Shown here in pieces: positions 1 to 5,756 of a stretch of DNA of 64,000 nucleotides. The notes beneath the pieces were generated by a model. That model ran no database searches. It was not told where the DNA came from and saw nothing but the letters and a program-made list of their open reading frames with translations. The stretch is from NCBI GenBank assembly GCA_015272515.1, contig JACYLN010000061.1, forward strand, positions 1 through 64,000. Direction: 5' to 3'. Numbering within the stretch: position 1 is the stretch's first letter; each line of letters starts with the position of its first letter. Position numbers and translations under genes: made by a program. This DNA is from Leptolyngbyaceae cyanobacterium C42_A2020_001 (lineage in GTDB: Bacteria > Cyanobacteriota > Cyanobacteriia > Leptolyngbyales > Leptolyngbyaceae).

Positions 1-2913
1 GGAAGTGGGGGGTAGGGGTAACTCTGGTTGGGAGTTAGGGGCAGGCAGGGTGGGCGACTCTGGCTGAGGAGTACGGTTACCTGAAGGCGAGATCGGGGGC
101 GCATCCTCAAACAGCTCATTCATGCCCTCAATGGTGAACGGCGCACTTGCTGAAGCGTCGTTTTGAACAGTCGCCTGATTTGTTAGGGGGGCAGCAGGCG
201 GCGGCGGAAGAGATGGAGCATCACCAAACAGGTCATCCATGCCTTCCAGGGTGAAAGGAGAGATGGTACTACTAGAGGGTTGGATAGTTGAGGGTTGAAC
301 CGGAGATGAAACGTCCGGATCTTCAAAGAGACTGGTCGTTCCTTCTAGCGTGAATGGCAGTGGCTCTGTGGGCGCGATCGCAGGTGGAGAAAGCGGTTCA
401 GTGGGGCTAACCGCTTCGTTGTCAAATAGTTCTGCAAATCCTTCAATCGTTATATCAGCGATTGAAGGCGACGCTTGATAGTAAGGAGTTGGAGCCGCAG
501 GCGTAGAAACTTCGGTCATGGCAGCGGTAAGATCATCCAGAGAAATGGCTTCCTGATTTTCTGAAACAGCCACTTCTGGCGTTTCCGCCTGAGTTACGTC
601 TTGGGCAAAGGCTTCTAGCGTCAATTCAGGAGATGACCGAATATTTTGATCCGCAAACTCTAAAAGCCCGGCTCCAAATGCTCCTTCTAGACTGGATAAA
701 TCTTCGCTCAGGCTATTCAACGTGATTTCATCTAAATCCAGGCTTGCCCCAATGGTGTCAATCGGGGTATTGGGCAGAAGACTCTCATCCGGCGCGGCGC
801 GGGTAAATTGGTCCTCATCCGTTTCTAGATGAGTCTCGCCTCCAAATACATCATCAGACAAGAAGAAATCGAAAGATTCAGCAGGAGACTCAACCGATGA
901 GAAGTTGCTATACGCACCGGGAGGCTCGATTGGAATGGAGCAAGTGGCTTCGGGCGATACGTCTTGAAACAAATCGGTTAGAGAACCGAATTCATCTACC
1001 TCAAGCGTCGATTCAACCGGAAGTGATTCCTCTTCTAAAGGTGGGGAGGGCGCGATCGCGTCAGACGGTGACTCTGGCTCAAACAAATCTGCTGGCAGAT
1101 CGAGCAAGAGAGGTGCTTCGGTGGTAGCTGGGGTCCCTGAATCTGCAAGAGTCGGTACTGACGCAGGCTCAACTGCTGCTAGAGTCTCTGATTCTGGCAG
1201 CGTTTCCGATAAAGACGCTTCAAAACTTAGTTCTGGTGCTGTTTCGGCTTCTAGTGCCGTTTCGGGCATCTGGCTGGCTTCAGGTTCTGCGATCGCTTCG
1301 GGTGCTGGAGGCGATATCGCTGCCTCTTCTGAGCCAAACAAGCTTTGATAAAACTCATCCAGTTCATCACGAGCATCATTGGGCAATTCCGCCGTGGCTG
1401 GTACCTGTTCATCTACCGCAGGGCTACTCAACATTTGGTCTAACTGAGCTTCGGCATCTTCCAGTGAAAAAGTAGCCGTTGAATGCTCTAATTCAGCACT
1501 TAACTCCTCCAACAACTTGAGCGCTGCGTCAAATTCGGCGGTGTCTTCATCTTCAGACAGGCGATCGCCCAAACTAGCAGATTCACTCTCTAGATCACCT
1601 GCTGGTGCCGCAGCTATCTCAAATTCTGGCGCGATCGCAGTTGGTTCTAAATCCAAGCTGAGATCGGGTTCATCTCCCTGCTCAACAAAGTCGATTGTGG
1701 TAGGAGACGACACCTCCGGATCTAGCTCACCGAGTTCCAACGTGCTCAAATCCAGTTCTGGCAAATCAAAAACTTCTTCCTCTGGTGATTCGGTATTTCG
1801 GTTCATCTCGCTAACCGATTGCAACCAGGATTCGATCGCGGAATCTAACGATGTTGCGCCAGATGGAGAAGGTTCAACCAGATCAGCAGGTGTTGTTACT
1901 GCTGCATCTGAAATTTCGGACGATAAGAACTCTGCTCCGGCGTAAGGAAATGCCGGACTGGGGGGAGTCACAGGTGAAGCGGCTGAAGCAGGAACTGATG
2001 AACTTAAGCCAGGCAAGGTAGAACCAGAGGGTGCTGGAGGTGCGGGTGGTGGAGCGGATGAAACAGGAGAAGTTACCGATTCCGTTGGTGCCAGGTCTAC
2101 GTGTAGTGGGGTAACCGACTGTTCTGGCTGCACTGAACGCAGATAAGCTGAAGCCTCTTGCTTCAGTTGTTCAATCAACTGGTCGATCAGCAGCTTAAAG
2201 GTGTACTCACTTTGCTGCCCGGTGCTGTACATACGCTCCAGACCTTGAGAAAGCGCTTCTTGATAAGCTTGAATATTTCGCTGGAGCGACTCAAACACTA
2301 CCGTGAGCGTGGAGTCTAAATTGACTAGCATTTGATCAGAGCGCGATCGCAAATTCTGAAGTTGTTCATACTGAGGGTTTGCCAGCGCTGAGGCAGACCC
2401 CCCACTCAGCCTTGCATTTGGCTCATAAGGCTGCAATTGCCCCCGCAAACTGCCGAGGGTTTGGGCGATTTGTTGAGACAAGTTCTCCTGCAAACGACTC
2501 ATTAGCACCTGCAACAATTCCGCCGTGAGTTGCTGCTGGTTGAGCGCTGGATTGATCTGAGGTGGAGTCAAATTAGCCCGAAGATAACTCACCTCTTGCA
2601 AAATTGCCCGCATCATCTGGTAAGGCGACATCTCTGGTGGGTTCTCACCCGACAAAGCAGCCCGCTCCTGATCCTGATGAGCTTGAGAAGATGAAAAGGA
2701 CGCTTGTACCGCTGGGTTGATCCCAGGCTCTAATCCTTCCTCTCCAGGCATCCGCTGCTGTAGCGCCACCAAATAATTGCGAACACGCTCCAAAACCTGC
2801 CGTTGTTGCGCCACTTCTCCAGACATCACCCACGGCAAGCGGGGGTTTGTCCGGTAAAGCACGCTATCAATTTCGGTAATGAGGATCTGGATCTGTTCCT
2901 TCTGAGAAGTCAC
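1..2913 (-). CDS. Large acidic low-complexity protein with repeated LF-type motifs (partial, C-terminus outside window)
   Basis: I do not recognise this protein. The minus-strand frame is open from a GTG at 2911-2913 to the window edge, 971 codons without a stop. AGGGG lies 8-9 nt before the GTG and an in-frame TAG lies a few codons upstream, which fixes the start. Residues 1 to about 240 look folded: helical, Gln/Leu/Arg-rich, beginning TSQKEQIQILITEID. From about residue 250 the chain is rich in Asp, Glu, Pro, Ser, Ala and Thr, with very few Lys or Arg, and is probably disordered. A motif of the form PFT(L/I)EGM-x-x-LF-x-D occurs at about 853-865, 886-898 and 925-937, a weaker copy is at 820-831, and a longer relative (TLEVDEFGSLTDLFQD) is at about 636-651. 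There is no signal peptide or membrane segment. It could be a multivalent scaffold; that is inference. Confidence 0.8.
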   Translation of the reverse strand, partial: MTSQKEQIQILITEIDSVLYRTNPRLPWVMSGEVAQQRQVLERVRNYLVALQQRMPGEEGLEPGINPAVQASFSSSQAHQDQERAALSGENPPEMSPYQMMRAILQEVSYLRANLTPPQINPALNQQQLTAELLQVLMSRLQENLSQQIAQTLGSLRGQLQPYEPNARLSGGSASALANPQYEQLQNLRSRSDQMLVNLDSTLTVVFESLQRNIQAYQEALSQGLERMYSTGQQSEYTFKLLIDQLIEQLKQEASAYLRSVQPEQSVTPLHVDLAPTESVTSPVSSAPPPAPPAPSGSTLPGLSSSVPASAASPVTPPSPAFPYAGAEFLSSEISDAAVTTPADLVEPSPSGATSLDSAIESWLQSVSEMNRNTESPEEEVFDLPELDLSTLELGELDPEVSSPTTIDFVEQGDEPDLSLDLEPTAIAPEFEIAAAPAGDLESESASLGDRLSEDEDTAEFDAALKLLEELSAELEHSTATFSLEDAEAQLDQMLSSPAVDEQVPATAELPNDARDELDEFYQSLFGSEEAAISPPAPEAIAEPEASQMPETALEAETAPELSFEASLSETLPESETLAAVEPASVPTLADSGTPATTEAPLLLDLPADLFEPESPSDAIAPSPPLEEESLPVESTLEVDEFGSLTDLFQDVSPEATCSIPIEPPGAYSNFSSVESPAESFDFFLSDDVFGGETHLETDEDQFTRAAPDESLLPNTPIDTIGASLDLDEITLNSLSEDLSSLEGAFGAGLLEFADQNIRSSPELTLEAFAQDVTQAETPEVAVSENQEAISLDDLTAAMTEVSTPAAPTPYYQASPSIADITIEGFAELFDNEAVSPTEPLSPPAIAPTEPLPFTLEGTTSLFEDPDVSSPVQPSTIQPSSSTISPFTLEGMDDLFGDAPSLPPPPAAPLTNQATVQNDASASAPFTIEGMNELFEDAPPISPSGNRTPQPESPTLPAPNSQPELPLPPTS

Positions 2914-3408: not shown

Positions 3409-4110
3409 ATGGAAGACCGATTTGCTCCTCGAGATGTTGCCGCCAACTTATCCATTCGCTTAGCACCGTTTTTTCAAGGCTTACCAGAGGAAGCCGTAGA
3501 TCGGGCGACAGCGAACGTGGTCATGCGTAATCACCCAGCGAATCAGGTGATTCTGTTGGAGAACGACTGGGGCAGTTCGGTGTACTTCATTCTCAGTGGG
3601 TGGGTTAAAATTCGTACCTACAACTTAGATGGCAAGGAAGTGACCCTGAATATTTTGGGGAAGGGGGAGCTGTTTGGAGAAATGGCTCCGCTGGATGAGG
3701 TGCCTCGCTCAACCGATGTGATTACGCTAGCTCCAACTGTGATCGGCAATATGCCTGCCCAAGATTTTGTACGCTTGTTGAATACGGAGCCGCAGTCGGG
3801 TATTCGTCTGGCAAAGTTGATGGCTCGTCGTTTGCGCCAGGTAAACCGCCGTTTGAGGTTGCGAGAATCGGATAGTGTATCGCGAGTGGCGGATATCTTA
3901 CTGTTTTTGGCAGATGGGCAAGGAAAGATTAGCCAGCAGGGAACGGAGATTCCCAATTTGCCGCATCGGGAATTGAGTAGTTTAAGTGGTTTAGCCCGCG
4001 AAACGGTGACGAGAGTGTTGAGCAAACTAGAAAAAAAGGGGTTAATTACCCGCGATCGCGAGACGCTGTGTATCTCTGATCCTCATGCGCTGGAGCGGTT
4101 GATGCTATAA
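3409..4110 (+). CDS. Crp/Fnr-family transcriptional regulator
   Basis: This 233-residue protein has the usual Crp layout: a cyclic-nucleotide-binding beta-roll (about residues 15-130), a long dimerisation helix and a C-terminal winged helix-turn-helix (about 186-213, HRELSSLSGLARETVTRVL). The phosphate-binding cassette reads FGEMA (89-93) followed by PRST (99-102). It keeps the Glu and Arg that contact cyclic nucleotide in known cAMP receptors, so it probably binds cAMP or cGMP, unlike NtcA. SyCRP1-type regulators in cyanobacteria control motility and pilus genes; whether this one does is unknown. It is divergent from the large acidic protein and its 3' end lies 14 bp from the convergent ppx. 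Confidence 0.85.
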   Translation: MEDRFAPRDVAANLSIRLAPFFQGLPEEAVDRATANVVMRNHPANQVILLENDWGSSVYFILSGWVKIRTYNLDGKEVTLNILGKGELFGEMAPLDEVPRSTDVITLAPTVIGNMPAQDFVRLLNTEPQSGIRLAKLMARRLRQVNRRLRLRESDSVSRVADILLFLADGQGKISQQGTEIPNLPHRELSSLSGLARETVTRVLSKLEKKGLITRDRETLCISDPHALERLML

Positions 4111-4124
4111 CAGTTGGGATGTTT

Positions 4125-5756
4125 TTAACCCTTGATCCCAGCGATCGCTGATTCTAGAATTGGCACCACTTTCACACCAAACTGTTCTTCAAAACTTGAT
4201 TTTTTCTCGTTCAAACTCCACAGTTCCAAATCGCAATCATCGCCAGGGTTTGTGGGGTAGAGATGGAGACGAAATTCCCGCAGATCCAGGCGCAGTTCGC
4301 AGGTTACTTGTTTAATGGCACCAATTTGCCGTCGGTCGAGCGCTACTGCCAATCGCAGGAGGGGGCTGAGTTGGTCTACCAAACGGCGATGGGGTTTGCT
4401 AGTCAGGCTGCGATAGCTTTCGTGTTTCTTCTTGGGATTACTTTTGCGGTGATACCGGGCAAGGTTCGCGATCGTTTCAATCTCGGTTTCGGTGTAGCCC
4501 AGTAACTCATCATTGCGAATCAAATAGTAAGAGTGTTTGTGGTGAGCATCGTGGCTGATAAAGTGTCCGCAGTTATGTAAGATGGCGGCAGCCCAGAGGA
4601 GTTCACGTTCTTCTGTACCCCACGCATGTAAGGTACCTTGAGTTTGGTCAAACAAACTGAGGGCAAATCTGGCGACTCGCTCACTGTAGGGCAGGTTAAC
4701 CCGATACTTTTGAGCAGTTTTTAGAACACTGCGCTGGCGTACAGAACCCTGATAGCGGAGCCGATCTTCAATGAATCCATGAGTGAGCATCCAATCAACG
4801 ATCACACCTTCTCGCAGCGATCGCTCACAAATTGTGATGGAGTCACAGCCTAATAAGGTCATCGCTTCTTGCAAAATCAATGCGCCTGACAAAATAATCT
4901 CTGCCCGGCGATCGTTCATCCCCGGCAGGTGCGATCGCTCGGCATAGCTAAGGCGGCGAAAGCGGCTTACCATTTCCCGCAAATCTCGCAAGCTAAACGT
5001 GTAGCCGTGCAGTGGAGTTGGCGCGATCCCCAAATGCTCTTTAGCATGTAACGTTGCCAGCGTTTCAATCGTGCCAGACGTTCCCACCAGACGTGGGATC
5101 TCACCCGGACGCAGGTGTGCTTGCAAATCTTCAATCGGGCGTTCCAGCATTCCCCGAATGTATGCCTGAAGTGCTTGCAGTTCTGAGCTGCTAATGGGAT
5201 CTGTGGAAACAAACTCGTTGGTCAGGCGAACGGCTCCAATTTTGGTACTGCTCAAACTACGAGGTTCTTGTCCGTCACCCAAAATCAGCTCTGTGGACCC
5301 ACCACCAATGTCAATCACGATGTGGGCATGATTGTTAAACTCTAGCCCAGACAACACACCTAAATAAATCCGACGGGCTTCTTCTACGCCTGAAACACAG
5401 TTGATCCAGAGTCCTAACTGCGTTTCAACCCGCTGTAAAAACTCCCGTCCGTTGGGCGCTTCCCGTACAGCACTGGTAGCCACTGCAATAATTTGCTCAG
5501 AGTTGAGGCTTTTGGAGAGTTCCTGGCAGCGCTGAAGTGCGGCGATCGCCCGTTCCATTGCGGCTTCAGTTAAATGCCCCGTTTGTTTACATCGCTCACC
5601 TAGACGAACCGTGTTTTTTTCTCGAGCGATAATCGTAAAAGCAGGCAGCGAAGGTTGAATTCGAACAACCACCATGTGAATGGAGTTCGTGCCAACATCA
5701 ATTGCAGTGAGAATGCGTTCGTGCTCTGGAAACATTGTGGCGATGGGCGCAGACAA
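4125..5756 (-). CDS. ppx: Exopolyphosphatase / guanosine pentaphosphatase (Ppx/GppA family)
   Basis: 543 residues, the usual length for Ppx. These enzymes remove terminal phosphate from inorganic polyphosphate, and some also hydrolyse pppGpp, in the cytoplasm. The N-terminal half has the ASKHA phosphate motifs AIDVGTNSIHMVVV (about 18-31) and DIGGGSTELILG (about 148-159). The C-terminal half has an HD-like region, HNCGHFISHDAHHKHS, typical of longer Ppx proteins. The ATG at 5754-5756 is in a good position. It is a single gene, convergent with the Crp-type regulator. Confidence 0.93.
   Translation of the reverse strand: MSAPIATMFPEHERILTAIDVGTNSIHMVVVRIQPSLPAFTIIAREKNTVRLGERCKQTGHLTEAAMERAIAALQRCQELSKSLNSEQIIAVATSAVREAPNGREFLQRVETQLGLWINCVSGVEEARRIYLGVLSGLEFNNHAHIVIDIGGGSTELILGDGQEPRSLSSTKIGAVRLTNEFVSTDPISSSELQALQAYIRGMLERPIEDLQAHLRPGEIPRLVGTSGTIETLATLHAKEHLGIAPTPLHGYTFSLRDLREMVSRFRRLSYAERSHLPGMNDRRAEIILSGALILQEAMTLLGCDSITICERSLREGVIVDWMLTHGFIEDRLRYQGSVRQRSVLKTAQKYRVNLPYSERVARFALSLFDQTQGTLHAWGTEERELLWAAAILHNCGHFISHDAHHKHSYYLIRNDELLGYTETEIETIANLARYHRKSNPKKKHESYRSLTSKPHRRLVDQLSPLLRLAVALDRRQIGAIKQVTCELRLDLREFRLHLYPTNPGDDCDLELWSLNEKKSSFEEQFGVKVVPILESAIAGIKG

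Follow-up and report, generated by a model that had tools for sequence, protein, structure and literature searches.

Nine A's are enough for efficient slippage in bacteria, a length put to use in Thermus thermophilus dnaX, where transcriptional slippage at an A9 tract yields the tau and gamma products (PMC5009743). In Citrobacter rodentium tssM1, slippage takes place at an A11 tract ahead of a stop codon, and both length variants as well as the ratio between them matter (PMC4256274).

Here we analysed a window of 64,000 nucleotides from Leptolyngbyaceae cyanobacterium C42_A2020_001 (positions 1 to 64,000 of contig JACYLN010000061.1), in which the ORF at the left edge appears to be the opening three fifths of a single gene that encodes, in order, a coil, a linker with LF motifs, an A11 tract and an ATPase resembling the nucleotide-binding domain (NBD) of Hsp70. 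Comparison with homologous sequences establishes the anatomy of this gene, its in-frame continuation on a second contig, the conservation of the tract and the architecture of the reading frames around it. We consider it probable that programmed transcriptional slippage allows the one gene to give rise to scaffold-only and scaffold–ATPase proteins, with oligomers formed through the coil and docking through the LF motifs.

A coiled-coil and acidic-linker ORF runs off the contig edge

The window ORF starts with GTG at 2913 and runs down to position 1, where only the contig edge ends the reading frame. The initial annotation, which had placed the protein at 1-1340, covered the C-terminal portion of an ORF that is in fact longer (2913 to 1, minus strand) and missed the N-terminal helical portion at about 2119-2913. 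The ORF and its two parts are as follows:

1..2913, minus strand: scaffold-part ORF (coil-acidic linker, 971 aa), not closed before the contig edge and continuing on G000:C120 into the ATPase
2119..2913, minus strand: aa 1-265, the conserved N-terminus, made up of long helices/coiled coil, 203 of 263 residues identical to the same-genus genome G002
1..2118, minus strand: linker, aa 266-971, acidic, Pro/Ser/Ala-rich and nearly without Lys, assigned as disordered from its composition and from relatives' linkers

The acidic, disordered chain and the folded N-terminus proposed from the sequence were both supported. The tail (aa 301-971) has a net charge of -132 and a Lys content of 0.1%, and disorder is predicted, with the linkers of relatives at pLDDT <50. 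Modelling a short homologue with AlphaFold gave long helices at residues 3-20, 28-57, 65-116 and 129-208, in keeping with helices/coiled coil at the N-terminus, with the remainder mostly disordered. As had been supposed, no named family was recognised for the coil-linker part: neither Pfam nor NCBIfam gave a match that passed its cut-off, and searches using the entire ORF returned sub-threshold matches only, helical in kind.

LF motifs are conserved within a divergent linker

The repeated FT(L/I)EG...LF motif noticed earlier is present at aa 821, 854, 887 and 926, with spacings of 33, 33 and 39 residues, and a fifth copy (FRLEQLDNLFVD) lies beyond the end of the window contig, on C120. When the tail was shuffled 20,000 times, 3 strict or 4 loose motif copies were never reached. 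The LF-acid patches DLPADLFEPE and FYQSLFGSEE, and the longer relative of the motif, were likewise all found in the ORF translation. These features map as follows:

418..453, minus strand: LF motif 1 (ITIEGFAELFDN), aa 821-832
319..354, minus strand: LF motif 2 (FTLEGTTSLFED), aa 854-865
220..255, minus strand: LF motif 3 (FTLEGMDDLFGD), aa 887-898
103..138, minus strand: LF motif 4 (FTIEGMNELFED), aa 926-937
961..1008, minus strand: LF-acid relative TLEVDEFGSLTDLFQD, aa 636-651, with 8/11 residues of EFGSLTDLFQD retained in G002
1072..1104, minus strand: LF-acid patch LDLPADLFEPE, aa 604-614, 9/11 retained in G002
1327..1368, minus strand: conserved patch DELDEFYQSLFGSE, aa 516-529, with 13/13 aligned residues retained in G002

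The last of these patches, with the pattern DELDEFYxSLFGSE, is distinct from the LF motif, and similar patches occur in relatives.

Between the window ORF and its counterpart in G002, the LF motifs are identical at 43 of 48 positions, compared to 52 of 139 in the neighbouring linker. Motif residues thus do not drift at the rate of the linker, and an identity so far above that of its surroundings argues that the motif is under selection. Neither of the outcomes named in advance as counting against the motif observation, drift at the linker's rate or loss of motif conservation in homologues that keep the N-terminal domain, was borne out. Motif number varies from 0 to 9 between homologues: a motif profile detected as many as 9 copies in members of the window's family, in which the types FTLEGMDDLFxD and FTLEQVGDLFVEVP occur, and mostly a single copy or none in other homologues.

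Given this pattern of conservation, the LF motifs are best read as docking motifs on a flexible scaffold, and they probably dock a partner. That partner is probably not only the ATPase described below, because short homologues (340-430 aa), from genomes without the ATPase, mostly keep a single motif at the end, and because AlphaFold leaves the motif undocked on the ATPase (pLDDT 33-49 for the motif in the native fusion fragment from locus L062). We also dismissed docking on the coil, as the motif had a pLDDT of about 58 and no confident docking in the short-homologue model. Genomes with short homologues that were tested with the G002 ATPase as query gave no match; one such genome, G024, gave a weak ATPase match with a wider profile.

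The idea of a multivalent binding scaffold therefore stands as regards a disordered acidic chain with conserved LF motifs, but is incomplete in that the chain also links into an ATPase. The initial annotation missed the ATPase and the A tract because the contig ends there.

The linker continues into a predicted Hsp70-like ATPase

Almost every long homologue is followed by the same ATPase (about 550-650 aa), which is either encoded by a neighbouring same-strand ORF or fused to it. The ATPase of the window's genome is located at the end of contig C120, and its frame extends back through RQKKKE, QSLDAAFESLLG, the fifth motif and LPPTSTPPVVREIPPFKPEL to the following overlap:

1..15, minus strand: 15 nt (CTACCCCCCACTTCC, coding strand) shared with the end of contig C120, on which the same frame goes on through the last motif, the A11 tract and the ATPase

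The joined C89/C120 protein text agrees with the G002 orthologue across the join. The evidence for this join is the 15-nt overlap together with the orthologue rather than sequencing reads; should the contigs abut, the complete protein would have about 1,653 aa.

By prediction, the ATPase part adopts an Hsp70/actin-type nucleotide-binding fold that best matches DnaK. The AlphaFold model of the L062 fusion fragment (726 aa) has a mean pLDDT of 81, with the ATPase part mostly >90 and its C-terminal part mostly helical, and VIA-align superposed the ATPase on the DnaK NBD with a best Z of 22.8 and an rmsd of 3.6 over 374 aligned residues. GIDxGTT and CTGG-type motifs are conserved. The ATPase reached 17.0 at best against the Pfam HSP70 curated cut-off of 20.6. 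We also considered a PilM-like ATPase and rejected it, as its weak Pfam matches were below cut-off and both Foldseek and VIA-align put DnaK/Hsp70 first, in lists from which the absence of other folds excludes nothing. Across the class, 157 of 242 cyanobacterial species had an ATPase match, the weakest of them near threshold.

A rare A tract marks the scaffold–ATPase junction

An uninterrupted tract of A9-A11 was found at 64 scaffold/ATPase junctions (A10 in 49, A9 in 8 and A11 in 7), and the junction of the window's gene is an A11. Where the two parts are split, the scaffold ORF closes shortly past the A run, and the ATPase frame is open through the run. Within the first locus set (1.52 Mb, both strands), this gene accounted for 36 of the 37 A10 runs and for all three A11 runs; a later set of 40 further loci (377 kb), some repeating the first, gave a tally of 24 A10 runs, with 24 loci having an A10 junction tract. 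Among ten other genomes searched in full, five (G015, G051, G057, G058 and G136) have no A10 run apart from the junction, and in G005, G021, G026 and G032 it is one of two or three; G119 contains ten A10 runs. A single A11, the junction, occurs in the 5.55 Mb of the window's genome, together with three A10 runs elsewhere.

A further 27 junctions are free of the tract. Most of these are fused (among them Nodosilinea-like genomes and Hydrococcus), so that some lineages do without a second product; certain tract-free lineages seem to have fixed the full form. Two loci, L090 and L183, are split without an A tract. Separately, L110 (Tychonema bourrellyi) has an A10 tract with no ATPase frame after it within the locus searched, a possible recent loss or assembly problem.

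The reading frame of the ATPase changes while the tract is retained

Relative to the N-terminal part, the ATPase is in frame at 18 of the 64 junctions, in the -1 phase at 37 and in the +1 phase at 9. One of those counted in frame, L156, has an A11 and a stop upstream of the tract, suggestive of decay or an assembly error. For the 42 resolvable genes of the first set, a single frame reaches the ATPase, this being the zero frame in 10, -1 in 28 and +1 in 4.

One way to make a fusion from such loci, with polymerase slippage absent, would be -1 programmed ribosomal frameshifting at A_AAA_AAG/A_AAA_AAA. This would suit the 37 of 46 split loci that are in the -1 phase, many loci reading GAA AAA AAA AAG, which is a known ribosomal slip site (PMC3711429), but it could not produce a fusion in the nine +1-phase loci, and about 17 loci, the window's gene included, are in frame. 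The tract also exceeds the length that a ribosomal heptamer needs, and the usual stimulators are lacking: there was no conserved downstream RNA structure at the junctions (mean z -0.39), hence no conserved stem-loop, and little excess of Shine-Dalgarno-like sequences upstream (14/63 vs 13% in the control). We regard ribosomal frameshifting as an unlikely explanation, and transcriptional slippage as the better one.

The A10 junctions divide into 27 in the -1 phase, 15 in frame and 7 in the +1 phase. Because A10 occurs with all three phases, the phase is set by flanking indels, as in Microcoleaceae and relatives, where A10 is constant and L104, L106 and L097 are in frame with L100, L107 and L108 in -1. 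A single genus can hold two phases, the window's species being in frame and G002 in +1, both with A11. A quick ATPase tree calls for at least 15 phase switches, through which the tract was retained.

These observations also bear on DNA-level phase variation, in which replication slippage in the A tract would make sub-populations toggle between having the fusion and lacking it. Homopolymers are classic examples of contingency loci (PMC3711429), and fused and split genotypes both exist; however, a length nearly fixed at 10 across the phylum, found with each phase, and phase changes arising from indels beside the tract rather than from the tract itself make such toggling very improbable.

The frames that do not reach the ATPase close early. 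With one A fewer, the frame stops within 4 codons in 91% of the 64 junctions, compared to 23% under the null, and with one A more it stops within 10 codons in 66%, compared to 38%. The junctions thus combine the features expected of a slippage gene: a tract of at least nine A/T at the junction, conservation beyond chance and an extension frame set against early stops.

A last possibility is that the scaffold and the ATPase are two independently translated operon genes, the tract encoding merely a lysine-rich C-terminus and the split or fused state being neutral or a product of assembly errors. Homopolymers are error-prone in assemblies, and some split ATPase ORFs do have possible GTG/TTG starts after the junction. 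However, no ATG lies between the tract and the ATP-binding motif in 29 of 45 split loci, and in 6 there is no ATG, GTG or TTG, which would seem to leave these 6 no way of starting an intact ATPase independently. Neither the frequent status of the tract as sole A10 of a genome nor the prompt stops in the shifted frame would be expected of independent genes, and we rate this the least probable of the readings considered here, again preferring transcriptional slippage.

Homologues and genomic neighbours

Matches to the ORF were found in 49 of 58 sampled relatives, mostly to the N-terminal region, with some representing only a related transporter coil. A contig scan using a single protein as query found nothing, and one using the N-terminal alignment returned 77 named loci, all labelled cyanobacterial except one MAG labelled Gracilibacteria. 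The record labelled Candidatus Gracilibacteria (L135) has a cyanobacterial-type fused homologue and is probably a mis-binned contig.

The window's genome also encodes a related coil (34% identity) N-terminal to an EamA/DMT-type transporter (G000:C21:44096-44764; L065:5974-7860). The same pairing is present in L144 and may be present in L145-L147 (645-703 aa). The coil would thus be a module common to two unrelated proteins, the scaffold and the EamA/DMT-type transporter.

Two genes next to the ORF recur in relatives; their families, like those of the sugar transferase-like and PgsA-like genes mentioned below, were read from sequence:

3409..4110, plus strand: divergent Crp/Fnr-type regulator, a conserved neighbour, in the same cluster in 30 loci
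4125..5756, minus strand: Ppx/GppA-like phosphatase, a neighbour in some relatives

Sugar transferase-like and PgsA-like genes adjoin the short ATPase-less homologues in a conserved order (L050, L054, L058-L062, L067 and L069 listed). In L050 both genes stand alongside the ATPase, and in L062 the sugar transferase does.

Literature searches found no described cyanobacterial Hsp70-like/coil family or slippage gene. The main text of the GeneTack study names none of the searched cyanobacterial genera, and the family could be among its unnamed clusters (PMC3711429). Synechocystis slr0449-0453, considered as candidate orthologues, were dropped, slr0453 appearing only in phosphoketolase-type literature contexts.

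A proposed model of slippage-controlled ATPase content

We infer slippage, two products, mixed oligomers and motif docking. RNA polymerase would slip on the A9-A11 tract, adding or dropping A's, to give two kinds of mRNA and hence two proteins with the coil and linker in common, a short form that stops a few codons past the tract and a full form that bears the ATPase. Which form the genome encodes differs by species (0, -1 or +1 frame), and the mixture would be maintained, since the genomic phase should hardly matter while both outcomes are kept by a polymerase that adds or drops A's. In the window's species, the full form is what the genomic frame specifies, and slippage would produce the short form, as in Thermus dnaX. 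Most likely, the coil oligomerises so that short and full subunits mix, the LF motifs on the acidic arm recruit one or more partners, and the frequency of slippage sets how many subunits carry the enzyme and how many ATPase heads each assembly has. With less assurance, we lean towards the broader view that this is a phylum-wide slippage site, selected through at least 15 frame changes, that determines how many subunits with and without the ATPase make up an undescribed cyanobacterial coiled-coil scaffold, its acidic arm bearing amplifiable LF docking motifs.

If true, cells would here be using transcriptional slippage at a site whose conservation is unusually wide, in a nameless gene family that many cyanobacteria possess. 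Because the A10 tract is often unique within its genome, RNA sequencing could test the proposal directly. The proposal also suggests that automatic gene calling would list the gene as two entries, a 'hypothetical protein' plus an orphan Hsp70-like ORF, and it provides a lead to a putative cyanobacterial ATPase-scaffold system.

Comparison with known systems

The cyanobacterial ATPase resembles the NBD of Hsp70/DnaK in its predicted fold and in its conserved GIDxGTT and CTGG-type motifs, but identity is about 11-19% and the score falls below the Pfam HSP70 cut-off. Its C-terminal part, about 130 residues, is mostly helical in the model and may differ from the typical substrate-binding domain of DnaK (SBD beta plus lid), and unlike DnaK the ATPase is tethered to a coil and an acidic linker. 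With Thermus thermophilus dnaX, the window's gene shares an A tract, a long product in the genomic frame, stops nearby in the other frames and the predicted pairing of a shared N-terminal product with a C-terminally extended one. It differs in that the cyanobacterial protein is a coil, acidic linker and Hsp70-like ATPase, and in that the genomic phase varies between cyanobacterial species while the tract is kept, slippage here being proposed from that pattern. Citrobacter rodentium tssM1, in which added A's restore the frame at the A11, is closest to the -1-phase cyanobacterial loci, which have the same split-frame layout with an A tract at the stop; however, tssM1 slippage is described in Citrobacter and Yersinia (PMC4256274), whereas the cyanobacterial site is phylum-wide and belongs to an unrelated family.
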